Below, piece by piece: positions 20,552-47,000 of a DNA stretch of 47,905 bases. A program made the translations under genes and the position numbers. Location of the stretch: NCBI GenBank assembly GCA_021740785.1, contig JAIOZI010000036.1:1-47905 (forward strand). Reading direction: 5' to 3'. Below the pieces are notes generated by a model. It did no database searches, had not been told where the DNA came from, and saw only the letters and a program-made list of their open reading frames with translations. Each line of letters opens with the position of its first letter. The stretch's first letter is position 1. The stretch is from Melioribacteraceae bacterium. Lineage in GTDB: Bacteria > Bacteroidota > Ignavibacteria > Ignavibacteriales > Melioribacteraceae.

Positions 20552-20567
20552 TTATTGAGTGAGGTAG

Positions 20568-20628
20568 GCTGTTTCAAATTATCTTTTTATACGGATGTAT
20601 TTTTTCAACCTGCTGTATTTGAAACAGC
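20568..20628 (+). promoter_or_regulatory. Stem-loop between nosZ and the next gene
   Basis: GCTGTTTCAAAT (20568-20579) is the exact inverted copy of ATTTGAAACAGC (20617-20628), with a 37-base loop. No U-tract follows, so it is more likely a transcript-processing or stabilising hairpin, which would leave nosZ mRNA more abundant than the accessory genes, than a terminator. Confidence 0.6.
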
Positions 20629-20652
20629 TCTACTTTATCGAAGAGGAAAATA

Positions 20653-21237
20653 ATGACAAAGAAAGAAAGATTGATAATGACAATTGCTTCGATGATACTA
20701 ATCGGGACTTTCTTTTTCCCGATATGGAAAATTGATCTGCAAGCGCCTCAATACCCCGAAGGAATTGGTCTGCGAATTTGGGTTAATAAAATTACAGGCG
20801 CAAGCAAACATGATCTCGATAATATTAACAAGCTGAATCATTACATAGGGATGAAAGAGATTAAGCCGGAGTCCATCCCGGAATTATCCGTCATGCCTTT
20901 TATAATCGGCTTCTTTATTGTGACAGGATTAATCGCTGCATTTTTAAAAAAGAAGCCGCTTGCATCGGGCTGGCTTGCTCTATTTATTATTACTCTTATC
21001 TACGGTTTCTATGACTATTATTTGTGGGGATATGATTACGGGCATAATTTAAATCCCAACGCACCAATTAAAATTCCGGGAATGGTTTATCAGCCCCCGT
21101 TATTCGGCTCAAAACAACTGCTTAATATGCTTTCAGTCTCTCTGCCCGGTACCGGGAGTTTTTTAATTGGAGTTTCTATCATGCTGGTATTATATGTTTT
21201 ATTCAACAATAAATTCAAGAGGTTTCAACTCAGATGA
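20653..21237 (+). CDS. nos-cluster inner-membrane protein (NosB-like position)
   Basis: This 194-residue protein has about four hydrophobic helices: one at the N terminus (IASMILIGTFFFPIW), MPFIIGFFIVTGLIAAF, GWLALFIITLIYGFYDYY and a C-terminal FLIGVSIMLVLYVLF. A periplasmic loop follows the first helix. A membrane protein directly after nosZ is standard in clade II clusters (called NosB in Wolinella); its biochemical role is not established. AAGAGG precedes the ATG, and the stop overlaps the nosL start by 4 bases. Confidence 0.75.
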   Translation: MTKKERLIMTIASMILIGTFFFPIWKIDLQAPQYPEGIGLRIWVNKITGASKHDLDNINKLNHYIGMKEIKPESIPELSVMPFIIGFFIVTGLIAAFLKKKPLASGWLALFIITLIYGFYDYYLWGYDYGHNLNPNAPIKIPGMVYQPPLFGSKQLLNMLSVSLPGTGSFLIGVSIMLVLYVLFNNKFKRFQLR

Positions 21238-21680
21238 AAAAATCAATGCTTGTATCAGCAATCATTCTAATCGCATTAACAGCTTGCTCTTATGAACCGG
21301 AACCCATTAGATATGGAGAAGATAATTGCGATTTATGCAAAATGCAGATTTCAGATCATAAGTTCGGGACAGAAATTCTTACATCCAAAGGAAAAGCAAT
21401 TAAGTTCGACTCTATCGAATGTATGGCGGATTATTCATCAAAATTGAATCCTGATCATATTGAATCATTTTGGGTTACCGATTTTTCCAACGCAGGGAAA
21501 CTTATCAGTATTGAGGAAGTTAAGTTTTTAAGAAGCGATGAACTGCGAAGCCCGATGGGTTTAAGTTTACTTGCACTTTCCGACGAAACTGAGTTGAGAG
21601 ATCTGACTAATAAATTCGGCGGTGAAGAACTGAGCTGGAATGAAGTGCAAGAATATGTAAAGAAAGAATGGCATGATTAA
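21234..21680 (+). CDS. nosL: NosL copper chaperone lipoprotein
   Basis: This 148-residue lipoprotein has a lipobox at LTAC|S. CDLCKMQISD (Cys and Met ligands, about residues 32-41) is the Cu(I)-binding motif of NosL, and FDSIECMADY is the second conserved block. It delivers copper to apo-NosZ in the periplasm with NosD/F/Y. It overlaps the membrane-protein gene by 4 bases and nosD by 8, indicating coupled translation. The family call is secure. Confidence 0.93.
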   Translation: MKKSMLVSAIILIALTACSYEPEPIRYGEDNCDLCKMQISDHKFGTEILTSKGKAIKFDSIECMADYSSKLNPDHIESFWVTDFSNAGKLISIEEVKFLRSDELRSPMGLSLLALSDETELRDLTNKFGGEELSWNEVQEYVKKEWHD

Positions 21681-22920
21681 TCTTAGTAAGCATATAATCT
21701 TTTTTTGTGTAGCTGTTTTATTCACTCAGTTCAACCTTACCGGGGGTGAACTGCAAGTTGGGAAATCTTTTCAATACAAATCCGTTGCTTCCGCAATAAG
21801 CGCATCGGTTAACGGCGATACAATTATAATTAACGGGGGCTTTTATAAAGAAGCAAATTTAGTGATTCGAGAAAAAATTATTCTTATCGGTAAGAACAAT
21901 CCAATAATAGACGGCGAAAGCAGGTATAATATCTTAAGTATATTCTCCGATTCGGTTACAGTTGAAGGCATTACTTTTCAGAATGCCGGAATAAGTTTCA
22001 TCGAAGATAACGCCGCAATTAAATTAGATTCAGTGAAACACTGTATCATAAGAAACAATACCTTTATCAATAATTTTTTCGGTGTATATCTTGCCGAAGC
22101 ATCTTACTGCACAATTACAGGCAATTCAATCAGCGCTCAATCGAAAAAGGAAACACAGTCCGGCAACGGAATTCATCTCTGGTACTGCAAGAACATTCTA
22201 ATTGAAAACAACAGCATCGAAGGTCACAGAGACGGTATTTATTTTGAGTTTGTTGAGAGCAGTATTATAAAACACAATTTTAGTTTCGAAAATTTGCGTT
22301 ACGGTTTGCACTTTATGTTTTCGGATAGCTGCACATATTCTGAAAATAGATTTGAAGATAACGGCGCTGGCGTTGCGGTTATGTTTACACACCGGATTAC
22401 AATGGTTAACAACGAGTTTATCCACAATTGGGGCAGCGCTTCATTCGGGATTTTACTTAAAGAAATAACAGACAGCAAAATTGAAAATAATTATTTCTAT
22501 AAAAACACCAGTGGAATTTATCTCGAAGGCTGCAACAGGATAATCATTGCAAATAACGATTTTATTGAAAACGGCTGGGCGCTCAGACTAATGGCAAACT
22601 CGATGGATAATATTTTTAGAGAGAATAATTTTATAGGCAATTCATTTGATATTGCAACGAACAACACAAAAAACTATAACCTATTCGAATACAATTATTG
22701 GTCGGAATACAGCGGCTATGATATCAACAAGGATGGTATTGGTGATATTCCTTATCGACCGGTTAAATTGTTTTCCCTTATTGTTGAACGGAACAAACCG
22801 ACATTGCTGCTGCTCAGAAGCTTTTTTGCTGAAATTCTTAATTATGCCGAACGAGTCTTCCCGGCATTAACTCCAAAAAAATTGGTTGATAATAGTCCCG
22901 CTATGCAGAGGCTGCAATGA
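21673..22920 (+). CDS. nosD: NosD, periplasmic copper-site maturation protein
   Basis: This 415-residue protein has an N-terminal signal followed by right-handed parallel beta-helix repeats (about 90-350) of the NosD/CASH type. Repeated turns such as NNTFINNFFGVYLAEA, ENNSIEGHRDGIYFEF and ENNYFYKNTSGIYLEG show this. DINKDGIGDIPYRP is the usual end of the helix. The C terminus may pack against the membrane transporter NosFY. It matures the CuZ centre of NosZ. The start lies inside nosL and the stop overlaps nosF (ATGA). Confidence 0.94.
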   Translation: MINLSKHIIFFCVAVLFTQFNLTGGELQVGKSFQYKSVASAISASVNGDTIIINGGFYKEANLVIREKIILIGKNNPIIDGESRYNILSIFSDSVTVEGITFQNAGISFIEDNAAIKLDSVKHCIIRNNTFINNFFGVYLAEASYCTITGNSISAQSKKETQSGNGIHLWYCKNILIENNSIEGHRDGIYFEFVESSIIKHNFSFENLRYGLHFMFSDSCTYSENRFEDNGAGVAVMFTHRITMVNNEFIHNWGSASFGILLKEITDSKIENNYFYKNTSGIYLEGCNRIIIANNDFIENGWALRLMANSMDNIFRENNFIGNSFDIATNNTKNYNLFEYNYWSEYSGYDINKDGIGDIPYRPVKLFSLIVERNKPTLLLLRSFFAEILNYAERVFPALTPKKLVDNSPAMQRLQ

Positions 22921-25128: not shown

Positions 25129-25413
25129 GGGCGTGGGGAATAAATATACCCAATATTCACAGGGGTTTTCCCGTTGGTTCACTGCGTGCTAACCCCTTTC
25201 CTCAGAAGGCGATCAACTTGAGCAAACTAATTCAACAATAGAGAATAATGTTAGTAGTAAAAAATGATTTTAAAACTTTTCGCGAACTACATTTGATAGA
25301 ACATCTAAAAAATCCTCTCTTCAAAGTGATTATGTTTTTTATTTTACAGAATTTAATTGACTATTAACTTCATTTTATTATTTTTATAAGTTTTGACGTT
25401 CCCTTATATACAC
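25129..25413. other. Intergenic stretch upstream of the phosphate symporter
   Basis: An inverted repeat AGGGGTT/AACCCCT spans 25161-25197. The rest is AT-rich and probably contains the symporter promoter, which I cannot place. A 39-codon frame at 25248-25367 has no ribosome binding site and is not called. Confidence 0.5.
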
Positions 25414-27537
25414 ATGAAAAAACTGTTGTTTTTAATATTACTCTTTCCGGTGCATTTAAATTTATATGCTCAATTAGATTCGCTTAATTTAAAGCTTGTC
25501 TCCCACGATCAGAATAGATTTACCGAATCCGTATTTGCAACCGCTGAAAAAGATCTTGAAAAACCGCTAACATTGTATGTTGTTGACAGCAGCGGTTCAG
25601 CCGTTCCGAACATCCCGGTTATCTTTGAATTAATTTCACGACCTGAAAATGAATCCGGCACCGTAATTCACAATGCAATTGTTTTTACAGATTCAACCGG
25701 TCTGGCAAAAACCGATGTTGCTATTGGTTCTGAAGATGGCACGTACATTTTTTCTGCAACAATTAAAGGTTACTCCAAAAACATAACCCCATTATATTAT
25801 ACTGTAACTGCACGTAAGAGTAATTGGGTGTTTTTGTTAATCAGCGGCATGATCGGTGGATTGGGTTTGTTTTTATTCGGCATGTACTTGTTGAGCAACG
25901 GACTTAAAAAAGCAGCCGGCAGTAAGATGAGGTCAATCCTAAGTGCAGTTACAAATAATCGTTTTGTTGCCGTAGGTATTGGCGCTGCAGTAACGATGAT
26001 TGTACAAAGCTCAAGTGCAACTACTGTTATGCTTGTTAGTTTTGTACGTGCGAAATTGATGAATTTTGTACAAACACTTGGAATAATTCTAGGCGCTGCA
26101 ATCGGAACAACGGTTACCGTTCAGCTCATAGCATTTAAAATAACCGATTATGCTTTGTTGATAATCGGAATAGGTTTTATTGTTTATTTTTTCCCTAATT
26201 CAAAAAAAGCTAAAAATGTCGGAGAAGCGCTGCTGGGTTTCGGAATTTTATTTTTTGGAATGTATATAATGTCGAGTGCAATGTCTCCGCTGCGCACATT
26301 GAATTTGTTTGTTGAAATTCTTCTTCAATTGGAAAACCCGTTATTAGGAATTTTAGTTGGAACTCTATTTACAGCAATGATTCAAAGCAGCGCAGCTTTT
26401 TTGGGTATTGTGCTGATTCTCAGCATGCAGGGCTTAATAACCCTGGAAGCCGCAATTCCGCTTATCTTCGGGGCTAATATTGGAACATCCATAACAGCTA
26501 TTCTCGCAAGCATAAATGCAAACAGAGACGCAAAACGCGTGGCGCTTGCGCATACATTATTCAAAATTGTTGCAGTAATTATTTTCGTTTGGTTCATCCC
26601 TTCATTTAGTGAGTTTGTTAAAATGGTTTCGCCTACATTAAACGGGTCTGAATTAATCAATGATACAAACGGGAATGTAATACCGCGACAAATTGCAAAC
26701 GCACATACAATCTTTAATGTGTTATTTACATTTATCTTTCTCCCCTTTCTAACTCCTATTTCAAAATTGATTTATAAAATTCTGCCCGATAAAGAGATTG
26801 AGGATATTTCTCCGTACAGTACAAGATTTTTGGAAGATTCGCTTATCTCCACACCTACTCTTGCTCTCAATCTTGCAAAAGCCGAAGTGCTTGCATTTGC
26901 AATGAAAGTTAAAGAGATGACGGAAAAAATCATCATTCCTTTTTTTGATGATAAACCGGATGTGCTGAATGAAATTAAAGAAATGGAAAAGGAAATTGAT
27001 TTTCTTCAATTTAAAACAGCTAAGTATCTTACAAAAATAAGTCAGCGCGATATTGACGAGGACAGCGCCGAGGAATCATTCCAGATACTCCAATGTTCCG
27101 CTGAATTTGAATTTATTGCCGATCTGATTTCATCACGGCTGCGATCCCTGGCGAAGAAAAGAATAAAATATAATTTAAAATTTTCGGAAGATGGGCGCGC
27201 TGAATTATCCAAGTTTCATCTTAGAACAGTAAAGCAGGTTGCCCGTGCTATTGAGGTTTTTAAGGATACAAAATATGAACGGGGAAAAAAGCTGGAGCGC
27301 AAGTACCAGAAATATAAAGCGGGGGAACTCAACCTAAAACGCGCTCACTTCGAAAGACTTAGGCAAGATATTCCCGAAGCAATTCAAACAAATGAAATGC
27401 ACCTTGAAATGATAGACCTGTTCTTGCGTATTAATCGTCATGCTGCAACTGTTGGCAGAATTATGATGGGCGAGATTGAATCAGAAGATAAAGATGAAAA
27501 TGGGGATGATAACGGATCAAAGAAAGAGGAACAATAG
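25414..27537 (+). CDS. Na/phosphate cotransporter with periplasmic Ig-like and PhoU-like domains
   Basis: This 707-residue protein has a signal peptide (MKKLLFLILLFPV, cleaved near YAQ). A roughly 100-residue Ig-like domain follows (LTLYVVDSSGSAVPNIPVIF, TDSTGLAKTDVAIGSEDGTY). The Na_Pi cotransport core (about 140-460) has its two repeats marked by VQSSSATTVML and IQSSAAFLGIVL. A cytoplasmic PhoU-like helical domain (about 480-690) ends in an acidic tail. Family members move phosphate with sodium. The exported Ig-like domain in front is unusual. ATG 25414 is chosen over the TTG at 25393 because the signal peptide starts there. Confidence 0.88.
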   Translation: MKKLLFLILLFPVHLNLYAQLDSLNLKLVSHDQNRFTESVFATAEKDLEKPLTLYVVDSSGSAVPNIPVIFELISRPENESGTVIHNAIVFTDSTGLAKTDVAIGSEDGTYIFSATIKGYSKNITPLYYTVTARKSNWVFLLISGMIGGLGLFLFGMYLLSNGLKKAAGSKMRSILSAVTNNRFVAVGIGAAVTMIVQSSSATTVMLVSFVRAKLMNFVQTLGIILGAAIGTTVTVQLIAFKITDYALLIIGIGFIVYFFPNSKKAKNVGEALLGFGILFFGMYIMSSAMSPLRTLNLFVEILLQLENPLLGILVGTLFTAMIQSSAAFLGIVLILSMQGLITLEAAIPLIFGANIGTSITAILASINANRDAKRVALAHTLFKIVAVIIFVWFIPSFSEFVKMVSPTLNGSELINDTNGNVIPRQIANAHTIFNVLFTFIFLPFLTPISKLIYKILPDKEIEDISPYSTRFLEDSLISTPTLALNLAKAEVLAFAMKVKEMTEKIIIPFFDDKPDVLNEIKEMEKEIDFLQFKTAKYLTKISQRDIDEDSAEESFQILQCSAEFEFIADLISSRLRSLAKKRIKYNLKFSEDGRAELSKFHLRTVKQVARAIEVFKDTKYERGKKLERKYQKYKAGELNLKRAHFERLRQDIPEAIQTNEMHLEMIDLFLRINRHAATVGRIMMGEIESEDKDENGDDNGSKKEEQ

Positions 27538-28279: not shown

Positions 28280-28711
28280 CTACAAATTAACCAGCTTCTG
28301 AAGAGTTTTCTCTTTTAATTGTTCCAGTGTTTCTGTAGAAAGCATCTTGTAAGCATCTTCTCTCAGTCTGCCCCACTTATTGTGAACGGGACATGGGTTT
28401 TCATTCGAACATCCCGGGAAACCCAGCACGCAATTTTCAAACACTGATTTACCGTCAATCGCTTCCACAATATCAATCAACCGAATACTGCTCGGACGTT
28501 TTGCCAAATAGAAGCCGCCGTTTTTTCCCTTTTTCGATCCGACAATGCCGCTGTCTGTTAAAATCTGCAGAACTTTTGAAACAAATTCCTTGGGAACTTT
28601 TAACTCGTTTGAAACTTCAGTAGCATTAAAAATGAGTTTCTCTTTTTTTATTGATAAAAATAGAACCGCTTGTAATCCAAGTTCGCACTTCTTTGAGAAT
28701 ATAACCGTCAT
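28280..28711 (-). CDS. Rrf2-family regulator, NsrR/IscR-like
   Basis: This 143-residue winged-helix regulator has an Rrf2 N terminus (SKKCELGLQAVLFLSIKK), recognition helix (LKVPKEFVSKVLQIL) and wing (GSKKGKNGGFYLAKRP). The cluster loop is CVLGFPGCSNENPC (Cys-x6-Cys-x5-Cys, then PVH), close to the Fe-S-binding arrangement of NsrR and IscR. It is the last gene of the minus-strand channel cluster, 66 bases after an MscS gene. It could control that cluster, the nos island on the other strand, or both. It differs from the Rrf2 at 16876 in its Cys spacing. Confidence 0.88.
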   Translation of the reverse strand: MTVIFSKKCELGLQAVLFLSIKKEKLIFNATEVSNELKVPKEFVSKVLQILTDSGIVGSKKGKNGGFYLAKRPSSIRLIDIVEAIDGKSVFENCVLGFPGCSNENPCPVHNKWGRLREDAYKMLSTETLEQLKEKTLQKLVNL

Positions 28712-28777
28712 TTCAGAACATTTACTCCGATTTTTATAAACAATATTAACAAATTCGCAGGTATAAATTCAATCATT

Positions 28778-29692
28778 TTATTTTGGTTTGGTTCCGGGTT
28801 TACCTTCGGATTCGTTGTTGTAAAATCGCTTTGTGGGATATGCAAAATCAATATCATCATGCTTTGCAAATTGTTCAAGAATTTCTTCCCAAATCGATTC
28901 CTCGGTTCCGCGTCTTTGTCTTGCATGGCATAAATACCGAATTGTTAATAGTACGCCGCTGTCTTTAACGCTTGTATAAACTCTCGGAGTAAGCTTTGTA
29001 TAAAAAATTAGAAATTGTTTTGCCGCTTCCTTTATTTGTTTTGCCGCTTCCGTACTTAATGTTAGACCATGCTTTGTAACCGCCTCGGTTAAAATTTGCT
29101 TAGCCAATTTCCAATCACTTTCAAAAGTAACAAGCACCGGAATTTCGTTCCATATATATTCGAAGCCCGCAGTATAATTAGCTTGAGTTTTAGTGAAAAC
29201 CATTCCGTTTGGAATATGAATTATCCTGCCTGTACTTTGATCGGCATCAACCCAATTGCCCACTTCCATTACCGAAAATTGAAAGATTCGCACATCAATC
29301 ACATCGCCGGTTACATCACCAATCTGCACACGGTCTCCGACTCTTAATGGTTTTCTGATCATTATAAAAATCCACCCGACCAGATTAACAAGTAAATCTT
29401 TAAATGCGATTGCCAATCCCGCCGAGAGTAAACCAAAATATGTTGCAAGCGAACCAAACCCACCGAACCAGACACGCGTTAAAAAAAGTAATGCGATAAA
29501 AACAGTAGAGTATTGAACGATTTTCTGCCATTGGTAACGGACTGTCATATCATCGATTTTTTCAACAACAAATTTTTTCAGCAGTCTCAGGATCACCCAG
29601 AACACAAGAATAATTACGAAAGAGTATAAGAACTTTAACTGTGTGTCTGGAGCAACCCCAAAAAAATCTTCAATGATTTGATGTGTGTTCAT
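28778..29692 (-). CDS. MscS-family mechanosensitive channel (short form)
   Basis: This 304-residue inner-membrane channel has three or so hydrophobic helices (FLYSFVIILVFWVILRLL, YSTVFIALLFL and the pore helix LLSAGLAIAFKDLLVNLV). A beta domain follows (LRVGDRVQIGDVTGDVIDV; IHIPNGMVF) and a cytoplasmic C domain. MscS proteins release solutes when membrane tension rises. It overlaps the preceding MscS gene by 4 bases. The tail ends in a charged stretch. Confidence 0.92.
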   Translation of the reverse strand: MNTHQIIEDFFGVAPDTQLKFLYSFVIILVFWVILRLLKKFVVEKIDDMTVRYQWQKIVQYSTVFIALLFLTRVWFGGFGSLATYFGLLSAGLAIAFKDLLVNLVGWIFIMIRKPLRVGDRVQIGDVTGDVIDVRIFQFSVMEVGNWVDADQSTGRIIHIPNGMVFTKTQANYTAGFEYIWNEIPVLVTFESDWKLAKQILTEAVTKHGLTLSTEAAKQIKEAAKQFLIFYTKLTPRVYTSVKDSGVLLTIRYLCHARQRRGTEESIWEEILEQFAKHDDIDFAYPTKRFYNNESEGKPGTKPK

Positions 29693-30765
29693 TCAACAAC
29701 TTCAGAATTTATTGTTCGATCCTCTTTATTTAAATAGAGCGTTTGTGTTGGATATGCAAATTCAATTCCCTCTTTATTAAATTCCTCATAAATACGTAGA
29801 TTAATTTTTTGCTGTACATCCATAAACAAAATATAATCGTTTCCGAGTACATAATATACACTTTCGAAATCGAGACTGAAATTCCCGTATGATTTGAAAT
29901 GCGACCTGTCAAAAACCGCTTTTTCATCCTCTTCAATAATTGATTTTATAATTCCGGGAATTCTTTTCACCTTTTCATAACTAGTCTGATATACAACTCC
30001 AATTGTAAATACAACTCGTCTTCTTTCCATTTTCTTGTAATTATGAACCCTCGATGATGTTAGATTCGAATTCGAAACAACCAGAATTTCTCCTCCTAAT
30101 GTTCTTATCTTTGTTGTTTTTATTCCGATTTTTTCAACCGTGCCGAACTTATCGTCAAAATTTATAAAATCTCCCAATTGAAAAGGCTTGTCGAAAAATA
30201 TTACAAAATAGCTGAACAAATCACCAAGAATACCCTGAGCTGCAAGTGCGACTGCAATACCGCCTATTCCTAAGCCGGCTACTATAGAAGAAATTTCGAA
30301 ACCGAGATTATCAAGTAAAAAAATTATTCCGAGAATCCAAATAAAGAAATTAAGAAAGGCTGTTATGGGTTTAATGGTTCTTTGCTGATCTTCATTCTGA
30401 AATTTTTCCATATACTTCTTCAAAGAATAATCGACGGCAACGATTATAAACCTTATCACATAATACGTTGCGATTACACTGAAACCTATGTTAACAACTT
30501 TGCTTATTTTTTCTGAAAAGTGAAGCGTTTCAATGGCAATATAGACCGAGCCGAGAGTAAGAACAGGAATAAGAAGTTTTTTTATTGTTGCGGAAATAAA
30601 TTCATTTCTTCTTTTGTTATTCTCATTTGTGTCTTTGTCAAGTTTCCTTAAAATGAGCTTTTTTATCAAGCGAACGAGAATCCCTGCAATGAGTATAATC
30701 CCAACCGCTATGATGTATTCTTGAACCGTGTTGTTAAAATATTCTTTTGCTAAAATCTCTTTCAT
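29689..30765 (-). CDS. MscS-family mechanosensitive channel (five-helix form)
   Basis: This 358-residue protein has about five membrane helices, the last being the pore helix IVAGLGIGGIAVALAAQGIL with the Gly/Ala-packed face of MscS. The beta domain has FQLGDFINFDDKFGTVEKIG and EILVVSNSNL. AAGGTG is placed 8 bases before the ATG. It is coupled by a 4-base overlap to the next MscS gene and begins 20 bases after CorA ends. Confidence 0.92.
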   Translation of the reverse strand: MKEILAKEYFNNTVQEYIIAVGIILIAGILVRLIKKLILRKLDKDTNENNKRRNEFISATIKKLLIPVLTLGSVYIAIETLHFSEKISKVVNIGFSVIATYYVIRFIIVAVDYSLKKYMEKFQNEDQQRTIKPITAFLNFFIWILGIIFLLDNLGFEISSIVAGLGIGGIAVALAAQGILGDLFSYFVIFFDKPFQLGDFINFDDKFGTVEKIGIKTTKIRTLGGEILVVSNSNLTSSRVHNYKKMERRRVVFTIGVVYQTSYEKVKRIPGIIKSIIEEDEKAVFDRSHFKSYGNFSLDFESVYYVLGNDYILFMDVQQKINLRIYEEFNKEGIEFAYPTQTLYLNKEDRTINSEVVE

Positions 30766-30785
30766 AAATTCATCACCTTTTTATT

Positions 30786-31868
30786 TTATAACCAATTCTT
30801 TTTCTTAAAAAACAGCAGCAGAACTACGCCAACTAATAACATCAGAAAAAGCACAACCGGGTAACCATATTCCCATTGAAGTTCCGGCATATTGTTGAAG
30901 TTCATACCATAGAGCCCGGCAATAAATGTTAATGGAATAAAGATTGTTGCAATTATTGTAAGCACCTTCATTACCTCATTCATTCTATTGCTTACGCTGG
31001 AGAGATAAACGTCAAGAAGAGTAGTTAATGAATCCCTGTCATTTTCAAAAGTTTCCATTAGGTGCACTTGATGATCAAGCGTATCCCTGAAATAAACATT
31101 AACGGTTTCGCAGACAATTTCAGTGTCGCCTCGTAAAATAGAAGCGAGAATATCTCTTACCGGGGAAATGGTTGATCTTAATTTTTGAAGCTCTGATTTC
31201 ATTTTTCGAATGTTTGTGAGATCCTTTTCTTCCGGGTTGAATAATAATTTATCTTCCAGTTCTTCTAATTTTTCGGAAAACTCCTCGGAGATAATGCTGT
31301 ATTGATCGACAATTATATCAATCAATACATAGAACAAATAATCGCTCTTTTGTTTACGGAAAATATTCTTGCCGAATTCAATCCTTTCATACACCGGTTT
31401 GAACATATCATTTCCGCCATCCTGAAAGGTTACTACAAGAGTCTCACTGAAAAATATACTGACATGGCTCATTTTTATTTCACCATCCGGTGTAAACTCA
31501 GGATACTTTGCAATTACATTTGAGTAATCGTCAAACAAATCTATTTTGGGACGATGATATGCATTTAATACATCCTCTATAACCAGAGGATGTATTTTCA
31601 TAATTTCCCCAATCTTGGAAATAAGCTCTGCGTCTTGGATTCCGTTTACATTCAGCCACCTAACTTTACTATCTCCACTGCTATCAAGTTCTTTTTTTAA
31701 TTCATCTAAACCGGTAATTTTTTTTGAACTAAAATACTCTTCGTTATATTCAACAAAGTTTATCTCTGTTTTCTCCACTTCACTTTCACCCATGTACAAT
31801 AAAGTTCCCGGCGGTTTTCCGGCTTTATGTTTTATAAACTGTTTTCGTTTTCTTTTCTTTTTAGCCAT
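30786..31868 (-). CDS. corA: CorA-type divalent-cation channel
   Basis: This 360-residue protein has the large cytoplasmic N domain of CorA and two C-terminal helices (TIIATIFIPLTFIAGLYG and VVLFLMLLVGVVLLLFF). The ion-selectivity motif GMN is in YGMNFNNMPEL. It carries Mg2+ or Co2+/Ni2+ inward as a pentamer. The basic head (MAKKKRKRKQFIKHK) is a minor oddity. AAGGAA precedes the ATG. CorA embedded among three MscS genes is the unusual part. Confidence 0.94.
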   Translation of the reverse strand: MAKKKRKRKQFIKHKAGKPPGTLLYMGESEVEKTEINFVEYNEEYFSSKKITGLDELKKELDSSGDSKVRWLNVNGIQDAELISKIGEIMKIHPLVIEDVLNAYHRPKIDLFDDYSNVIAKYPEFTPDGEIKMSHVSIFFSETLVVTFQDGGNDMFKPVYERIEFGKNIFRKQKSDYLFYVLIDIIVDQYSIISEEFSEKLEELEDKLLFNPEEKDLTNIRKMKSELQKLRSTISPVRDILASILRGDTEIVCETVNVYFRDTLDHQVHLMETFENDRDSLTTLLDVYLSSVSNRMNEVMKVLTIIATIFIPLTFIAGLYGMNFNNMPELQWEYGYPVVLFLMLLVGVVLLLFFKKKNWL

Positions 31869-31902
31869 TGTTAATTCCTTATGAGAATTAATGTGTGCTC
31901 AT

Positions 31903-32916
31903 TTAATTGTTTAATGGAACCAATCCGTTTAGTTCCTCTTTTGAAACAATACCTTTACTAATAATTTCTTTAAGTGTCAACTCTGTCATTTCGCTCATAA
32001 ATGGAAACTCAAACCGAATATCAAAAACATATGCTTTCAATCTCATTTTTAGAACGGACCTATCCTGTGAAATTTCATTTTTAAAGATCACGGCTACCGG
32101 TTTATTTAAGTAAACATATTTTGAAACCTGTGCCGCCCTAATTGCGATTTGTTTCACTTTTTCGGTATCGACATAAGCAGGTAAAAATATCTCTGCAACA
32201 ACCTGGCAATTCGGTTCGCCGCTGTTTGAGTTCGAAATCGATTGAGAAACTATCTCGGCGTTTGGAATAACAACCATTGAGTCGTCTGCAGTAACAATTC
32301 TTGTCGACCTTAATCCAATCCCAATCACTTCACCGTAGTGAGAGCCAACCTGTATTTTATCGCCCACTTGAAATGCCCGGTCAAAAATTATCATTATACC
32401 GCCGAAAATATTTTTTAATATATCCTGGGCTGCAAATCCTATTGCAATACCGAGTGACCCGGCAACTAAAACAACCGTCTCAACCGGCGGTCTGAAAATT
32501 CCCACTATGACGAGTAAAATAATTGCCGTCCAGCCAAGAATACGAAAAATTGGAATGAGTCCCTTAAGAGTAATTCTATACTTTGTACTTCGTTCAGAAA
32601 ATCTGTTCAGAAGGGTTGTTATTAACTTAATTACATAGAAGCCGACAACAAAAAAGATAACCGACCATATCACCTTACTAAACGAAAACAACTCCTCAAA
32701 CTTTACCGGTGGTTTAAGATTTCTTTCTATTATGCCCTTTGTTGTCGAATCCTTTTCAGCCGGCTTCTCTTGTTCAATTACTTTTATTGTATCGGCGGCA
32801 ACCACAATTGTATCGGCTGCAACCGTATTTGAATCGCCTGCCGGTTGATTCTCCTGAGCGCTGAGAATTAAAGAGCTAAGAAGAAAAACTATTTTTAATA
32901 AATGATTTATTTTCAT
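31903..32916 (-). CDS. MscS-family mechanosensitive channel with exported N terminus
   Basis: This 337-residue protein begins with a signal peptide (MKINHLLKIVFLLSSLILS, cleaved near AQE) and a short periplasmic Ser/Thr/Asp/Val-rich segment. Two helices follow (VIWSVIFFVVGFYVI, LGWTAIILLVIVGIF), then the pore helix (VAGSLGIAIGFAAQDIL). The beta domain carries QVGDKIQVGSHYGEVIGIG and VIPNAEIVSQSI. It lies 8 bases downstream of the ATPase gene's stop, which ties it to that ATPase. Confidence 0.92.
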   Translation of the reverse strand: MKINHLLKIVFLLSSLILSAQENQPAGDSNTVAADTIVVAADTIKVIEQEKPAEKDSTTKGIIERNLKPPVKFEELFSFSKVIWSVIFFVVGFYVIKLITTLLNRFSERSTKYRITLKGLIPIFRILGWTAIILLVIVGIFRPPVETVVLVAGSLGIAIGFAAQDILKNIFGGIMIIFDRAFQVGDKIQVGSHYGEVIGIGLRSTRIVTADDSMVVIPNAEIVSQSISNSNSGEPNCQVVAEIFLPAYVDTEKVKQIAIRAAQVSKYVYLNKPVAVIFKNEISQDRSVLKMRLKAYVFDIRFEFPFMSEMTELTLKEIISKGIVSKEELNGLVPLNN

Positions 32917-32924
32917 ATCGATCT

Positions 32925-35900
32925 CTAATGAAGAATGTTTTTGCTTTTTAACATTTTTATTACATAACCATACAGTAAAAAATTTATTGCATATACATCA
33001 CCGCGCTTAATTAAAATGCCGTCATCCAGCATCGATAAAAGCATCAGCCTGCTTTCACTTTGTGAGACATGAAAAACCTTTGAATGCTCTTCAACAGTTA
33101 ATCCATTGTGAATAATTAACGCCATCAAGACGAATATTTTTTCGGGACTTAAATTTATGAGAAATGAAAAATCTATTTCATTCAAAGAAGTGATTTCAAT
33201 TTTTTCGTTGGAAATACTCTTGATAGATCGCAGCCAGAATAATTGGGCGAGAGCTATATTACTCTGACACATATCATTCAAAGAAGAAAAGAATTTCTTC
33301 TTCAAAAATATTTGTTTTTCCTCTTCGCTTAATTTTTTATATGCTTTCTGGTTTTTATCAATAGCTGAAGGTAAGAATATTAATTGATAACCGCTCACAT
33401 TATGTCTTCTCATTATCACATCTTCAATTTGAGTATCCGTTAAAGATTTAAGGCTGACTATTGAAGAAAAATAATCTCTTATCTGCACAACTTTATCAAG
33501 ATAGTTCCACGAGTAAACATTGCATGTTGCGATCCACAATACATTTTTACTCGTACTGTTTATTATTTCAAAGAACTTGTGAATAACATTAAAACCGTCG
33601 ATAGAACGAATAAATAATTCTTCCAGATTTTCAATTACAGCTATTCGTTTATTATCAGAAGCTTCCAAATTTTCCTTGAACTCCTGCAAATTTGCAGCAT
33701 GATCCAACTCAAACAATTCAGATAAATATTGAATTAAACTTTCCGGAGTATTAATTGTCTTCTTCAGAATTTTCCTGTAAAGCACAACATCGTTCGAAAA
33801 AATACTGCTGATGTAATTGATTAATGAAGATGCACCTTCTCCCTTTTCACCGGTAATTACAACGGATGAAAATCTTCCCGCTTTCCAATAGTTGTAGGCG
33901 ATATTAATCATTTCTATCTCTCTATCTCTGGCAACAAAAAATCGCATGTCATCCAACGGTTCATTTCTGAAAAGCCTTTGATAAATAAATGGCAGTTTGT
34001 TGATTAATGAATCGGTTTGGATTAGATAATCAGAAATCTCTGCAGAAATACTTTTTGCCTGTTCTTTTAGCCCGACTCTTTCGGTAATCTTTGTAATTTG
34101 GTCTGACGAGGATTTGTACCAGTTCTTAATCCGGAGTATTACTACAGGAACAAAATTCTTAACTTGTTTCATTCCAAAAATAATTGCTTCAATTGCTCTT
34201 TTCTTCGCCTTAGTTTTGGAAAGTTGGATTTTCAATCTAAGCAGTTCCTCTGCTTTATTCAACCGGGTTATCTCTTCATTAAACTGCTTTGTGCTTTTCG
34301 CAATTGTTTGTAATGATTGATTTGTGATCTCTGTAAGCTTCTTCCTTATTTGTTCAACCCGGCTTGCAGCTCTCGTCAATCCCTCAATTGCCGTAGATTT
34401 AGCATCTTCAAACTTTTGTTTATCCTTTTCAATAATAGAGGCGGCGCTGTCTAAACTATATTCGGCTACCTGACCAATATCAAGAATCGAAGGTTGAATT
34501 TTTCTTATTCCGAGTTTAGCATTTTCTGCAGTGTGGTTTAGATCACTAATAAAGCGGTAAAGTGAAATGTTTTCAATTATATCTTTAATATCAACTGGAT
34601 TGAAATCATTCATTTTAATTGCGGAATTGAGGTCATTAGTTTTTATTATGTTATAAGAATTATTTAAGGTAGATACTTTTTTCTTCAAATCTTTCTTATG
34701 CCGCTCAATATCCGATGTTACATTTTCAAACGGCAGGCGCTCAACTAATCCTATTATAATTTTATCATTAATTATCTTTCTAACCGATTCTTTATTCTTT
34801 CGAATTGTATCAAGAAGCAATCCGGTTTCAGCATTTTCAATTGAAGCAGCAGCCTCTTTTATTTTTTGATCCATCAACTGAAAATCCTTTTCAATGAATC
34901 CGGCAAGATTTTGCTTCGTAGATTCAACCAGTTGAAGCTGTGATGCGACTGTAAAATATTTTAATGAAGCTAGAGTTGAAAACAAAACCCCCTTTTCATT
35001 AATACCTGTATGATATGTATTCAGTGAGTTTTTTTCTGAAACATAAATATTGTTGAGCTGCTCTACCAAGTTAAAAATCCGGTCACCAGCATAATTCGAT
35101 AACGGCAGCTCGATTGTATCTGCCAATTCGTAATCAGTAACAAAACTGCTTTGTACCTGTTCAAGTTGATTATATATTTCATCAACCCATTTTATATGTG
35201 CTTGTTTTATATCGTCAATAAGTGAATCGAATTTCCCCAGCGATACGTTTTTTAATTTTTCTAATCTTTCGGTTTCGTTGAATGCTTTTTCATTAAAAGA
35301 AATAACTCTATAAAGTTCGTTATCAGTTTCATCTACTATTTTTAATGCTCTTAACCGGCTATTGTTCAAAAAGATGTTTGCTTTAGTCAGTACAGCAATA
35401 AATTTTACGGGAAAAAGAAAATGAAAATATTTTTTGCAGAAGTTTCCGTACGGTATAGACTGCTCCCACCTCGGCATTGGTTTTTTCTCTTTACCAAAAG
35501 CGCTGAACAGCTTATTTCTGATTTTTCCATAATACTGCGAAATATGAAATGCAAGATTTTTGAATACAATCAACAGGCACAATCCAATATTCTTTGAGCC
35601 CGAACACTTGAATCTCTCTGTCGATTGTTCAACTAAATGATCACTTAATGAATCAAATAATTCAGATGTGCCGAGATAATAATCTCGAAAATCTTCACTG
35701 AAAGTATTGCTTGCTTCATCTTCTTCCGGTTGAATCAACAGTTCTTTCAAATCATTCTGCATCTCTTCGGCAAGTCGTGCACATTTTACTTTGTCTTTAT
35801 AATTCGCATTAATTTTATCCAGCCCGCTTGCAATCCGCATCTGAAATAATTCGAACAGTTTATTAATTCCATTGAATTTAACATCAACCGCTTGTTGAAA

Positions 35901-35960
35901 TTCTTTTTCAACTATCTCTTTAACCTTACTAAAAATTTGTGCGTGCTTTTCTTCGTTCAT
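32925..35960 (-). CDS. Large coiled-coil P-loop ATPase of unknown function
   Basis: This 1011-residue protein matches no family I know. Residues about 1-650 are mostly helical with long charged coiled-coil stretches and a few hydrophobic patches (GLCLLIVFKNLAF, FLFPVKFIAVLT, FVPVVILRI). An AAA/STAND-like NTPase follows: an entry motif FVARDREIEMI, Walker A ITGEKGEGASSL near residue 703, a Walker B-like IAVIENLEE near 773 (Asp replaced by Glu-Asn) and a sensor-like VLWIATCN near 805. The C terminus looks like a winged helix (about 945-1000). No signal peptide is present. It is flanked by an aldehyde dehydrogenase (15 bases) and an MscS channel (8 bases). It could gate or assemble the channels, which is inference. 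Confidence 0.85.
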   Translation of the reverse strand: MNEEKHAQIFSKVKEIVEKEFQQAVDVKFNGINKLFELFQMRIASGLDKINANYKDKVKCARLAEEMQNDLKELLIQPEEDEASNTFSEDFRDYYLGTSELFDSLSDHLVEQSTERFKCSGSKNIGLCLLIVFKNLAFHISQYYGKIRNKLFSAFGKEKKPMPRWEQSIPYGNFCKKYFHFLFPVKFIAVLTKANIFLNNSRLRALKIVDETDNELYRVISFNEKAFNETERLEKLKNVSLGKFDSLIDDIKQAHIKWVDEIYNQLEQVQSSFVTDYELADTIELPLSNYAGDRIFNLVEQLNNIYVSEKNSLNTYHTGINEKGVLFSTLASLKYFTVASQLQLVESTKQNLAGFIEKDFQLMDQKIKEAAASIENAETGLLLDTIRKNKESVRKIINDKIIIGLVERLPFENVTSDIERHKKDLKKKVSTLNNSYNIIKTNDLNSAIKMNDFNPVDIKDIIENISLYRFISDLNHTAENAKLGIRKIQPSILDIGQVAEYSLDSAASIIEKDKQKFEDAKSTAIEGLTRAASRVEQIRKKLTEITNQSLQTIAKSTKQFNEEITRLNKAEELLRLKIQLSKTKAKKRAIEAIIFGMKQVKNFVPVVILRIKNWYKSSSDQITKITERVGLKEQAKSISAEISDYLIQTDSLINKLPFIYQRLFRNEPLDDMRFFVARDREIEMINIAYNYWKAGRFSSVVITGEKGEGASSLINYISSIFSNDVVLYRKILKKTINTPESLIQYLSELFELDHAANLQEFKENLEASDNKRIAVIENLEELFIRSIDGFNVIHKFFEIINSTSKNVLWIATCNVYSWNYLDKVVQIRDYFSSIVSLKSLTDTQIEDVIMRRHNVSGYQLIFLPSAIDKNQKAYKKLSEEEKQIFLKKKFFSSLNDMCQSNIALAQLFWLRSIKSISNEKIEITSLNEIDFSFLINLSPEKIFVLMALIIHNGLTVEEHSKVFHVSQSESRLMLLSMLDDGILIKRGDVYAINFLLYGYVIKMLKSKNILH

Positions 35961-35975
35961 AATTATTTCCAGGTA

Positions 35976-37388
35976 CTAAAAATATTTTACTGTTAAGTCA
36001 ATAAGTTTTTTTACAATTGGTGTGTAAGGTGGATAAAGAAATCTCAACGAAGTTAGTTTCGGTTGTTTCATTAAGGATTTTTCATTTGAAAATTCTCTAA
36101 AGCCGTAATAACCATGGGCTTTTCCCATACCGCTGGTTTTTCTGCCGCCAAAAGGAAGGTTATAATTTACAAAATGAACGACTACATCGTTCACTGCTGA
36201 ACTGCCGGCAGGAATTTCCGAAATAATTTTTTTAATGAATTTTTTATCCTTTGCAAAAACATACAGCGCTAAAGGATCGGGATTATTATTTATTATTTCC
36301 GTTAACTCATTATAGTCAGAATATGTTATAACCGGAAGTATTGGTCCAAATATTTCTTCCTTCATAATTCTTGAATCAAGGGAAACATTTGTGATGAGAG
36401 TTGGAGAAATATATTTATTGTCTTCTTCAACAATACCTCCGAATTTTATTTCAGCGCCATGTTCAATTGCACTCTGCAATATATCATTCAATCTTTTATA
36501 ATGATCATCGTTTATCAGCCTGCAGTAATTTGCATCTTCTTTAATCTTCTCAACTTTGCCAAAGTATGACTCAACCGCAGATTTCACTAGATTAATAAAT
36601 TCATCCTGCATTTCCGTTTTTATCAAAACATAATCAGGAGCAATACATGTTTGACCGCAGTTCATAAATTTTCCCCATGCAATTCTATAAGCGGCTGATT
36701 TAAGATCGGCGCTTTGATGAATTATCGTCGGCGACTTACCTCCAAGTTCAAGTGTAACGGGCGTTAAATTTTGAGCTGCTGCGGTCATAACTTTCTTCCC
36801 AGTCTCAGTACTGCCCGTAAAAAATATGTGGTCAAAAGGCAGCCTGACCAACTCCTCGGCAATCACGTGATCACCTAAAATAACCGCTACTTCCTTTTCG
36901 TCGAATAGCTCCGATAAAAATTTATAAAGAAAGGCTGATGTATGCGGACTCTTTTCCGAGGGTTTTAATATTATTCTATTCCCCGCGGCTAAAGCAGAGA
37001 CAATTGGTCCTAATGCCAATTGAAAAGGAAAATTCCAGGGTGCAAGAACAAGTACAGTCCCTTTGGGTTCGTAAAACACCTTATTTGAAGAGCCGAAAAA
37101 TGTAAGCGGAGTTTTTACCCTTTGAGGTTTAGTCCATTTTTTTAAATGCCGAATCGCATGTTTAATTTCTGATGTGACGGTGAAAATTTCCGTCAGCTTT
37201 ACTTCTGCCGCCGGTTTTTTGAAATCCTCGTATACTGCTTTTTGAATTTCGAGCTCACTTTCAAAAATCTTCCTTAATAATTTTTTTAGGTTTGCTTTTC
37301 TTTTTTCAACCGGGATAAAGGGATTTTTAGCGGATTCTTTTTTTTGCAGATCGAATAAACGATTCACTTCACTGATTGTGTCATTCAT
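35976..37388 (-). CDS. Aldehyde dehydrogenase, class 3-like
   Basis: This 470-residue NAD(P)-dependent enzyme oxidises aldehydes to acids. APWNFPFQLALGP and FTGSTETGKKVM shape the cofactor site, the catalytic base Glu is in VTLELGGKSP (about 212), and the nucleophile Cys is in NCGQTCIAPDY (about 245). The late NLPFGGRKTSGMGK is typical. The hydrophobic C-terminal stretch (LRFLYPPYTP, VKKLIDLTVKYF) resembles class 3 enzymes that act on fatty or aromatic aldehydes at membranes. It is the first gene of the channel cluster. Confidence 0.94.
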   Translation of the reverse strand: MNDTISEVNRLFDLQKKESAKNPFIPVEKRKANLKKLLRKIFESELEIQKAVYEDFKKPAAEVKLTEIFTVTSEIKHAIRHLKKWTKPQRVKTPLTFFGSSNKVFYEPKGTVLVLAPWNFPFQLALGPIVSALAAGNRIILKPSEKSPHTSAFLYKFLSELFDEKEVAVILGDHVIAEELVRLPFDHIFFTGSTETGKKVMTAAAQNLTPVTLELGGKSPTIIHQSADLKSAAYRIAWGKFMNCGQTCIAPDYVLIKTEMQDEFINLVKSAVESYFGKVEKIKEDANYCRLINDDHYKRLNDILQSAIEHGAEIKFGGIVEEDNKYISPTLITNVSLDSRIMKEEIFGPILPVITYSDYNELTEIINNNPDPLALYVFAKDKKFIKKIISEIPAGSSAVNDVVVHFVNYNLPFGGRKTSGMGKAHGYYGFREFSNEKSLMKQPKLTSLRFLYPPYTPIVKKLIDLTVKYF

Positions 37389-44025: not shown

Positions 44026-47000
44026 CTATTTAATATTTTCAACGGCTTCTAATATTTCGGAAATATTATTATATCTATCCTTAGGTTCTTTTGCAATAGA
44101 TTTTATAACTATTTCATCGAACCGGGGATCGAGATTAGAATTTAATTCCGATGGTTTGAGCGGATGAGTATTGAAAATTGAATGGATCAATGCAATTTCA
44201 TTTTCACCTTTGAACGGCATTTGGTTGGTTAACAATTCATACATAACAACACCGAAAGAAAAAATATCGGTTCGTTTATCGACATCGATACTGGTCACCT
44301 GTTCCGGTGCAACATACCCAAGCGTTCCCACAACTGTTCCGAGTGATGTCATCGTAGAAACCAGCGGAGATTTTGATAACCCAAAATCCATTATGCGAAT
44401 TTTACCTTTGTCATCAAACATTACATTCGGAGATTTGAAGTCGCGGTGAATAACTCCTTTTTCGTGAATTGCCTCTAAGCCCTTACACATCTGAATAATT
44501 ATATCGATTAGTAATTCTTTGCTAAGCGGGAAATTCCGGTCAATATAATCCTGCAGCGTTCCGCCCGGTAAATATTCCATTGCAATAAAACTATGTTCCT
44601 CGCTTTCGCCAACCTCAAACACCTTAACAATGTATGGATGATTCATCATTGCCAGAAGTCTGCCTTCATTACTTAATCTTCTCCTGTTTTCGGGATCGTT
44701 CATTAACCGCTGATTCAAAACTTTTAATGCCACTATTTCTTTGCTTTGTGTATCGATGGCTTTATACACGCGTCCCATTCCGCCTTCACCGATTATTGAA
44801 TCCAACTTAAAATGAGATATGTATTTGCTCTCTTTTAATTCAATGGCTTTGCCGTAAGCAATTACTGATCCGAAAGACAATGCGGCAATTGCTGCAAGCG
44901 CTGATACAGCAGATTCAACCTGCCCATTCTCTATTGTGAAATGAGTAATCAAAATATAGCCGATAATTAACAGTGGATAGTAGTAAAACGAAACAAGAAG
45001 TTTTTTTGATTTACTTTTTCTAAAGAAGTAATAAACTATTCCGAAAAGTATAAGCAGAATTATCAGTTTTATTATTTCATTCATTGTTTGAAGATGCAGT
45101 ATTGATCGGTTTACTGATTTTAAAATAAGCGCATAATTGTGAGTTATTATATCCGATTCATTAATTTCTATAAGTGAGTTCGGTTTTATATCATCAATCA
45201 ATTTTTGTTCGCCGGATGGGAATTTAACTTCAGCGGTATAATGATAAATATCCTGCAGCCCGAAAGTAATATTTCCAACAGGTTTGTTGCTAATGGGACT
45301 TGAACCCAAACCAACCTGGTATAAATTTTTATAAACCGGTGCGCCCTTTTCATCAGCGGCATTAATAATTATTTGTGTTCCGACACCGCTTCTATTGCTT
45401 TTATCCGGATTGAGTTTAATTTTAAGAAAATTATTCGCAATAAGATTGTTTCTAAAAAGAGCGGCGCGTATACCTTCTCCCATCGACATTTGACTGCTGC
45501 CGAGGAACAAATCGTAATCACCATCATTATCCGTATCGGCAAAAACAGGATTCCCGGCAAACTGCAATCCAACTTGATTAGCAGTCTCGGTGAATTTCAT
45601 TTCAGAGTTATTAAGAAATAATCTTGATCCGACAAACAAATCAACCCAGCCGTCATTATTAATATCTGCGGCATTTATAATTCCATTGCCGGGTTCAGGG
45701 TGGAACATAGAATAATTCAGTCCGGCTTGCACAGCTTTATTTTCAAAAGATGCAGTTCCGTCATTAATCAACAACCGAACGGCGCCCCCGTTGTTATACA
45801 TAAAAATATCAGAGTATCCGTCGTTATTAAAATCCTCGGCGATAGTAGAAAAAGTAAGAATCGCTATTGAAGAATTGAAATTGGGGTCATGCTTTTTATA
45901 AAATCTAAAATTACCTGTGTTGAGAAAGAGATCAAGATGTTTCTCCCCGATATTAATTCGATAGGGAATAAGAACATCAACCAGCCCGTCGTTATTAAAA
46001 TCGCTGAAGGTCGCGCCAAAAGACATTGCATTTAGAGATTTATTAATTCCCGTGGAACCGGATACATCTGTAAATTTACCGGTGCCGTCATTTTTAAAGT
46101 ATCTGTCAATTGAGTTAAAGTTGGAAACGTAGAGATCAAGATTCCCGTCATTATCAAAATCAATAAGATCGGCAGAAATATGTGAGCCGGCTTCGATGTA
46201 ATCCAGTTTTATATTGCTTCGCTGCGTAATGTCTTTGAAATCCAAATTTCCGTCACCAAGCAGCAGACGAAAATTCTGATTGTCCTGAATTTCAAATAGA
46301 TCGGGATTCCCGTCATTATTTACATCTCCTGTTGCAGCCGCCAGCACCCATTTAAGTTTATGTTCGGTAATGGTTTCCGATGAAGATTCACGAAAATTAT
46401 TCCGCCCGGTATTTTCAAACAAGAGCGCTTGTCCGGCTTCATTAAGAACTAATAATTCGGGAAGATCATCGTTATTAAAATCAGTAAAAAGACCGGCTTT
46501 ACCAACCGTACGCAATGCAGATTGAAGCGTAATATTAGTAAATGAAAATCCAAGCGCTTGCGAAGTTGTATAAATTCCGGCATTTCCTATGAGATAAAGA
46601 TCTAAACCGCCGTCAGGATTTTCAACAACTTCTATATCTCCAAAATCATCATCATAAATTTTAACTTGTTCAATTTCTTCCCATTCAGTGCCGTTAAATT
46701 CAAGCAATGTTGAGTTTGAGCCGGAAACATAGATTTGATCTTCCGAGAGAGCTTTAATCCCCACAAGACTTTCATTGATGTTCAGATTTACAATTTCCCA
46801 TTTTCCGTTTGTTAATTCCAGGAAAGTTCCGCGCTCTCCAACGATATATCCTTTTGAACTGTTGAGCATATCTACATCTAAAAGCTGCATACTGACGGGA
46901 GATTCGTACCTGATCCATTTTCCATCAGAGTATTTTAGAATTATCCCGTTTTTCCCTGCCGCCCATCCTTCGTTTTTATTTATCATATCGATGTTGTTAA

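Follow-up and report, generated by a model that had tools for sequence, protein, structure and literature searches.

MscS-family channels are usually regarded as passive tension valves, and bCNG MscS-like channels carry a fused cyclic-nucleotide domain. How does a locus compare in which an MscS-family protein is accompanied by a large AAA+-type protein encoded by a gene of its own? We address this question with a 47,905-nucleotide stretch of DNA from a Melioribacteraceae bacterium (assembly GCA_021740785.1, contig JAIOZI010000036.1, positions 1 to 47,905; hereafter "the window"), in which a 1011-amino acid (aa) P-loop protein of AAA+ type (32925-35960, minus strand) is encoded directly upstream of an MscS-family protein that we call MSC1 (31903-32916, minus strand; 337 aa). 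We favor, at somewhat better than even confidence, a dedicated AAA+ switch/MscS module that would serve ion or cell-volume homeostasis, in which the two proteins would form a complex and the state of the AAA+ protein would set transport.

How constant is the association between the P-loop gene and an MscS-like gene? Relatives of the P-loop protein were searched for in four overlapping genome sets that include the window's own genome. Positives numbered 15 of 58 genomes in the first set, 31 of 164 in the order, 34 of 391 in the class, and 73 of 395 in the phylum; one of the order hits and two of the class hits were subsequently discarded. We took 95 P-loop loci with their surroundings, the positives of the phylum set being covered in part and some genomes contributing two loci. 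Removal of four weak nonmembers, seven loci cut by contig ends (L036, L037, L082, L107, L243, L246, and L247 in our numbering), and one ambiguous locus (L229) left 83. An MscS-like gene immediately adjoins the P-loop gene on the same strand in 83 of the 84 informative loci, L229 being the miss. Three apparent exceptions (L224, L235, and L245) were artefacts of calling open reading frames (ORFs), in which other ORFs hid the MscS gene; in each, tblastn recovered that gene immediately upstream of, and codirectional with, the P-loop gene. L215, L216, and L218 were rejected as family members, with weak similarity (E 1e-4 to 1e-3) and no match to the profile hidden Markov model (HMM) of the AAA+ part. 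The usual order is P-loop gene, then MscS gene, and the reverse order occurs in 14 loci, which fall in one clade of 16 tree rows; the remaining two rows, L243 and L246, are among the loci cut by contig ends.

The association was equally evident from the MscS side. GTDB genomes were scanned with an eight-sequence MSC1 alignment and no P-loop reference, and the best 80 of 239 relatives were kept. The P-loop gene is the direct neighbor in all 80, on the same strand, lying upstream in 79 and downstream in one (L179, from SAR324); in several of these loci it runs off the contig, and several genomes are common to the P-loop-side set. With ORFs taken from the first start codon, the gap between the two genes is -14 to 38 bases in 78 of the 80 loci and 117 and 129 bases in the other two. 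The paired taxa include Ignavibacteria/Melioribacter, many Bacteroidota, Calditrichota, KSB1, Latescibacterota, Gemmatimonadetes, and SAR324, with cultured Bacteroidota represented by Fulvivirga, Aquimarina muelleri, Reichenbachiella, and Sunxiuqinia. One locus is labeled Rickettsiales (L139), and its AAA+ protein groups with Marinoscillum; it probably comes from a misbinned or misnamed metagenome-assembled genome. A preliminary description of this DNA named, as a ground for refuting its reading, a neighborhood not conserved beyond close strains; for ATPase–MscS these counts, from several phyla, show the opposite.

The two genes also share their presence and their history. Among the 164 genomes of the order, the 14 that carry MSC1 (E 1e-60) are the same 14 that carry the soluble form of the P-loop protein (as distinct from the transporter-fused relatives described below). 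Pairwise distances between P-loop proteins and between MSC1 proteins are correlated (r = 0.77, 70 pairs; maximum of 0.17 in 1000 permutations), a correlation due in part to shared organism phylogeny and common descent. Mean identity over the pairs is 53% for MSC1 vs. 25% for the P-loop protein. Gene neighborhoods and sequence comparison thus establish the P-loop gene and MSC1 as a tightly linked and evidently old gene pair that has been reordered yet kept together.

What kind of protein is the P-loop partner? A predicted model built on a 70-sequence alignment (pLDDT 87.7, pTM 0.68) is helical over residues ~1-630, followed by an AAA+ core (~654-930) and a C-terminal winged-helix-like part (~930-1011). 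Its closest fold match (Z 16.2, 246 aligned residues, rmsd 3.3) is to Drosophila ORC-Cdc6 (7jgr, chain G), where rows within 1 of the top Z count as tied; ORC/Cdc6 and TnsC chains score Z of about 14 to 16 on residues ~654-1011, with NSF and other AAA+ chains close behind. The fold searches barely probe the helical N-terminal region, and the result bears on the remainder, which in the predicted model is an AAA+ core with a C-terminal winged helix, similar to ORC/Cdc6/TnsC. The protein stays below the Pfam threshold (AAA_16, 21.4 bits vs. a cut-off of 32.6) and has no match in NCBIfam, in PADLOC, or, by sequence, among solved structures; some relatives pass a Pfam AAA threshold (e.g., L027, AAA_22, 32.5 vs. 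27).

The preliminary description called this protein a P-loop ATPase; the P-loop and the fold stand, and the activity is doubtful. The loop reads GEKGEGASS (residues 704-712; 33825-33851, minus strand, as computed from residue numbers), with alanine at the lysine position of the Walker A motif GxxGxGK[ST]. "ATPase" is therefore, for the window protein, a label of fold and not of activity. A lysine two places after the first glycine of the P-loop is found in 49 of 70 soluble-type proteins, and 62 of the 70 carry hhhhE[N/D] as their Walker B region. All nine aligned transporter-fused relatives (L027-L035) have the Walker A lysine.

MSC1, judged by its sequence, is an MscS-family channel protein with putative tension-gated conductance. 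It exceeds the PF00924 cut-off (1.9e-21; 76.4 bits vs. 20.2), and the eight-protein alignment and hydropathy show an N-terminus that resembles a signal peptide, a head of ~50 residues that varies between proteins, and the MscS beta domain, with hydrophobic stretches at residues 1-21, 73-107, and 115-168. The head presumably lies outside the inner membrane, consistent with ordinary MscS topology. Ahead of the beta domain is a pore-lining helix rich in small residues, GSLGIAIGFAAQD. A strict motif for this helix occurs in 73 of 81 soluble-type partners, which carry small residues at a mean of 7.4 of 14 positions (range 6-9, n = 81).

Relatives of the AAA+ protein tie the pair to ion transport. 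Those of ~1500 aa begin with a Na+/H+-exchanger domain (PF00999, 3.7e-21 in L027), and those of ~1700 aa with an SLC12/amino-acid-permease domain (PF00324, 5.3e-48, and PF03522, 7.4e-07, in L034). Pfam was applied to one example of each fusion type and custom HMMs to the other members, giving 20 exchanger-type loci, among them L078 with its N-terminus beyond the contig end, and 11 SLC12-type loci, of which some are truncated or broken. An MscS-like gene is retained beside the fused form in every locus of either type that we saw. Of the 20 exchanger-type loci, 14 have TrkH and TrkA genes after the MscS gene, the exceptions being L093-L098, of which L098 hits the contig end. At the opposite extreme, eight loci in family f43 encode hardly more than an AAA+ part (298-433 aa with translation begun at the first start codon; open frames of 440-466 aa), still next to an MscS gene. 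A tree of 111 AAA+ domains, on which L229 and L223 have very long branches, implies one change each for the SLC12 and short forms and two for the exchanger form.

Unfused arrangements of the same genes also occur. In L125, L127, and L129, a stand-alone Na+/H+ exchanger gene (PF00999, 2.5e-17 to 4.8e-23) immediately precedes the gene for the soluble form, and TrkH adjoins that exchanger gene in all three. A separate SLC12-like gene lies nearby in L153 and also in L125, where it is cut by the contig end (PF00324 5.4e-17; SLC12 domain below threshold).

Several further features of individual loci are of note. A ~414-aa protein of one family is encoded upstream of the exchanger-fused gene in all 17 loci where that position is visible (e.g., L027, 13380-14624); it matches the exchanger HMM in 11 of the 17 and, of three tested with Pfam, PF00999 above cut-off in L094 and not in L027 or L031, and it lacks, at the aligned place, the KD pair typical of most fused exchangers. 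In L108 and L099, the SLC12-fused AAA+ gene is broken into several ORFs and the MscS-like gene is intact. The AAA+ gene of L023 (7344-9092) has a cut 5' end whose peptide resembles translated sequencing adapter, an assembly artefact.

What might the pair do? Its role in ion or osmotic homeostasis is strongly suggested. An ion/osmotic/redox response was put forward in the preliminary description: the ion link is upheld by the Na+/H+-exchanger and SLC12 fusions, and for the redox part the Rrf2 regulator is the one pointer. The core would be a module of two genes, one for a large AAA+-type switch protein and one for its dedicated MscS-family membrane partner, whose products would form an inner-membrane complex. 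The activity of the attached transport protein would be set by the helical region of the AAA+ protein together with the nucleotide state of its AAA+ domain, which in the window lineage is probably determined by binding more than by turnover. In the window, the controlled protein would be the MscS pore, possibly along with the neighboring CorA and second MscS protein (MSC2), and the module would likely serve to keep ions and cell volume in balance. The P-loop protein may open or assemble the MscS channel, as first proposed; that the two proteins touch, that the AAA+ protein controls transport, and in which direction control runs are what we infer here. A broader version would make the MscS-fold protein and the AAA+ protein the sensing core of an undescribed cell-volume controller, wired in different lineages to a pore, to a Na+/H+ exchanger with TrkH/TrkA, or to an SLC12 cotransporter, and we hold it tentatively, as possible. 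Pore, Na+/H+ exchanger, and SLC12 cotransporter are the transporter classes of animal cell-volume regulation.

A number of observations weigh against the switch/MscS module. Gene pairing proves neither contact nor which partner controls the other. Of 70 soluble-type proteins, 14 retain the Walker A lysine and 56 have lost it, and given its loss in the window protein as well, nucleotide binding is itself uncertain. In the distant relative L229, the neighbor of the P-loop gene reaches PF00924 only below threshold (14.9 bits vs. 20.2), and L217, which we rejected as a member with an AAA+ HMM match at 3e-4 only and no adjoining MscS gene, would be an exception if counted. Of the 81 predicted operons, 64 contain no other recognized ion-transport gene. 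Finally, the small residues of the pore helix fall to a mean of 2.95 in exchanger-type partners (range 1-5, n = 20) and 3.6 in SLC12-type partners (range 0-9, n = 10). With this pattern lost in the former and mostly lost in the latter, the partner of a fused form may not be a pore, and gating of a pore by the AAA+ protein is therefore weakened as a theme common to all forms.

The last point leads to the best-surviving alternative, which we regard as rather unlikely: the MscS-fold protein would be a tension sensor or membrane anchor, and the AAA+ protein would control the fused exchanger or cotransporter, or a nearby CorA or MscS. The small pore residues are lost beside the fused exchanger, yet the MscS-like gene is retained in all fused loci seen, as such a role would have it, and PMC6261518 reports a plant MscS-like protein with a nonconducting function, a precedent for it. 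The pore helix of the soluble-form partners is, however, strongly conserved, as expected of a working channel. The sequences hint at a divided answer, in which the MscS-like subunit would be a pore in the window and perhaps a sensor or anchor beside a fused transporter.

We think it improbable that the AAA+ protein serves, by analogy with MoxR and RavA, to assemble the MscS oligomer or to control its quality. The AAA+ fold would suit such a role, as would the very short or overlapping gaps with the AAA+ gene first in 79 of 80 loci. However, a remodeling ATPase is expected to have the Walker A lysine that most soluble-type members lack, and the fusions to exchangers and cotransporters suggest a stable component.

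Still less probable, and disfavored, is a defense or abortive-infection pair, in which a STAND-like protein would sense infection and open the MscS pore. Foldseek matches do include the STAND proteins Avs4 (with an earlier 8-sequence model, pLDDT 63.6), Avs5, and the Roq1 resistosome, and among eight family members nSTAND1 is weakly matched in two and S_4TM, a SMODS-associated effector domain, in one (0.0013). Against this, PADLOC matched none of the eight aligned members, window protein included, at E 0.01; the P-loop protein had no match in phage or plasmid collections in a search with one query and modest sensitivity; flanking gene lengths are alike across many f43 loci; and the transporter fusions indicate ion homeostasis.

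How much of the surrounding cluster belongs to the switch/MscS module? The ORF list places seven genes at 28280-37388 on the minus strand where the preliminary description put them, and their tight packing and stated families hold up as well (ORFs, Pfam, TIGR00383). Transcription would run from an aldehyde dehydrogenase gene (35976-37388; PF00171, 1.2e-98) through the P-loop gene and MSC1 to genes for a CorA Mg2+/Co2+ transporter (30786-31868; 360 aa; PF01544 1.7e-67, TIGR00383 3.2e-89), MSC2 (29689-30765; 358 aa; PF00924, PF21082, and PF21088), a third MscS-like protein, MSC3 (28778-29692; 304 aa; PF00924 6.2e-14), and an Rrf2-family regulator (28280-28711; PF02082 1.7e-28), all on the minus strand. 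The successive intergenic distances are 15, 8, 34, 20, -4 (an overlap), and 66 bases, and the next gene upstream of the aldehyde dehydrogenase starts at 37590, 201 bases away. Across the region, promoter-like (41 vs. 35.5 in shuffles) and terminator-like sites (6 vs. 5.7) were not above chance and speak neither for nor against one continuous transcript. MSC2 and MSC3 exceed the PF00924 cut-off with 72.2 and 52.3 bits, and CorA scores above the TIGR00383 equivalog cut-off (299.5 bits vs. 200.75). Among the window proteins, the MscS C-terminal domain PF21082 is matched by MSC2 and not by MSC1 or MSC3, and MSC2 has more hydrophobic N-terminal stretches. Genome-wide, there are six MscS-domain genes, three of them in the cluster; the cluster CorA is the only CorA match, and the P-loop protein matches only itself.

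Accessory genes were counted in 81 loci, window included, under a loose rule (within five genes, either strand) and a strict one that defines the predicted operon (same strand, gap under 300). The loose rule gives an extra MscS gene in 20 loci and CorA in 19; the strict rule gives CorA in 13, an extra MscS gene in nine, both in eight, and any recognized ion-transport gene in 17. CorA is thus a recurrent accessory conserved near the ATPase–MscS pair beyond close strains, and MSC2 is another, whereas MSC3 is optional, with MSC3-type genes close to few other loci. The order P-loop–MscS–CorA–MscS recurs in L024 and L114, which are one genome found in two collections; in L122, L128, L145, L149, L151, and L153, the extra MscS gene precedes CorA. 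Neither the aldehyde dehydrogenase nor Rrf2 belongs to a neighbor cluster of at least four loci among the 81, as judged from cluster representatives, with one aldehyde-dehydrogenase-like ORF (L174) and one Rrf2-like ORF (L182) as isolated cases. That all seven genes form one osmotic, ion, or redox stress operon under Rrf2 is thus the least probable reading, and we reject it as a functional unit: the tight single-strand packing and the order recurring in L024/L114 speak for it, but the aldehyde dehydrogenase, though possibly cotranscribed, and Rrf2 are nonrecurrent and lie outside the conserved unit, and MSC2 and MSC3 are optional.

Elsewhere, in L143 (4699-6990), genes for a Zn_protease (PF05618), a RimK ATP-grasp protein, and an AstE/AspA-like protein lie directly upstream of the pair, and similar genes lie upstream in other loci; these neighbor clusters comprise eight, nine, and seven loci, respectively. 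The window itself holds several other genes of interest, all on the plus strand except the last. A diadenylate cyclase (4097-5542), with a CdaA N-terminal membrane part, a DAC domain, and a YbbR-like domain, lies ~23 kb from the cluster; c-di-AMP, the product of diadenylate cyclases, controls K+ and osmolyte transport. A nitrous-oxide-reductase propeller protein and a NosD-like beta-helix protein (18608-22920) mark a probable nos cluster. A Na+/phosphate cotransporter (25393-27537) has an Ig-like head (Big_1, below threshold) and a C-terminal PhoU. On the minus strand, 44026-47592 encodes a protein of 1188 aa that combines FG-GAP repeats with a Ser/Thr kinase domain at its C-terminus.

Is such a pair already on record? 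We found no description of it, or of its transporter fusions, in searches of open-licence PubMed Central papers, a scope that leaves subscription papers and preprints outside, and a word search of PMC7159879 and PMC8195603 gave no occurrence of MscS, mechanosensitive, antiporter, or ion channel. The superfamilies of both proteins are known; the pairing and the transporter fusions are apparently undescribed. If the switch/MscS module is real, some bacteria would actively regulate MscS-type proteins through a nucleotide-dependent, or nucleotide-shaped, switch. A widespread protein family with weak Pfam AAA matches would thereby gain a testable function, with cultured hosts that include Aquimarina muelleri and Fulvivirga.

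Set against known systems, the module is part familiar and part distinct. Like other MscS-family channels (PF00924), MSC1-3 carry the beta domain above cut-off, and MSC1 keeps the Gly/Ala-rich pore helix; unlike them, MSC1 comes with its own AAA+ partner gene, starts with a segment resembling a signal peptide followed by a variable head, and has no match to PF21082. The 1011-aa protein shares with the AAA+ proteins of the ORC/Cdc6/TnsC/STAND group a P-loop core and, in the predicted model, a C-terminal winged-helix-like part, but its family has a long helical N-terminus, is mostly without the Walker A lysine in its soluble-type members, is tied by its genes to MscS, and includes some transporter-fused members. 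Na+/H+ exchangers (PF00999), SLC12/amino-acid permeases (PF00324 and PF03522), and TrkH/TrkA appear in relatives as domains or neighbors; the transporter domains that are joined to the AAA+ protein there are absent from the window protein. A parallel in layout is bCNG, where an MscS pore lies under a cytoplasmic nucleotide-binding module, as proposed here for the window pair, with the difference that the AAA+ part in the window is a separate protein.

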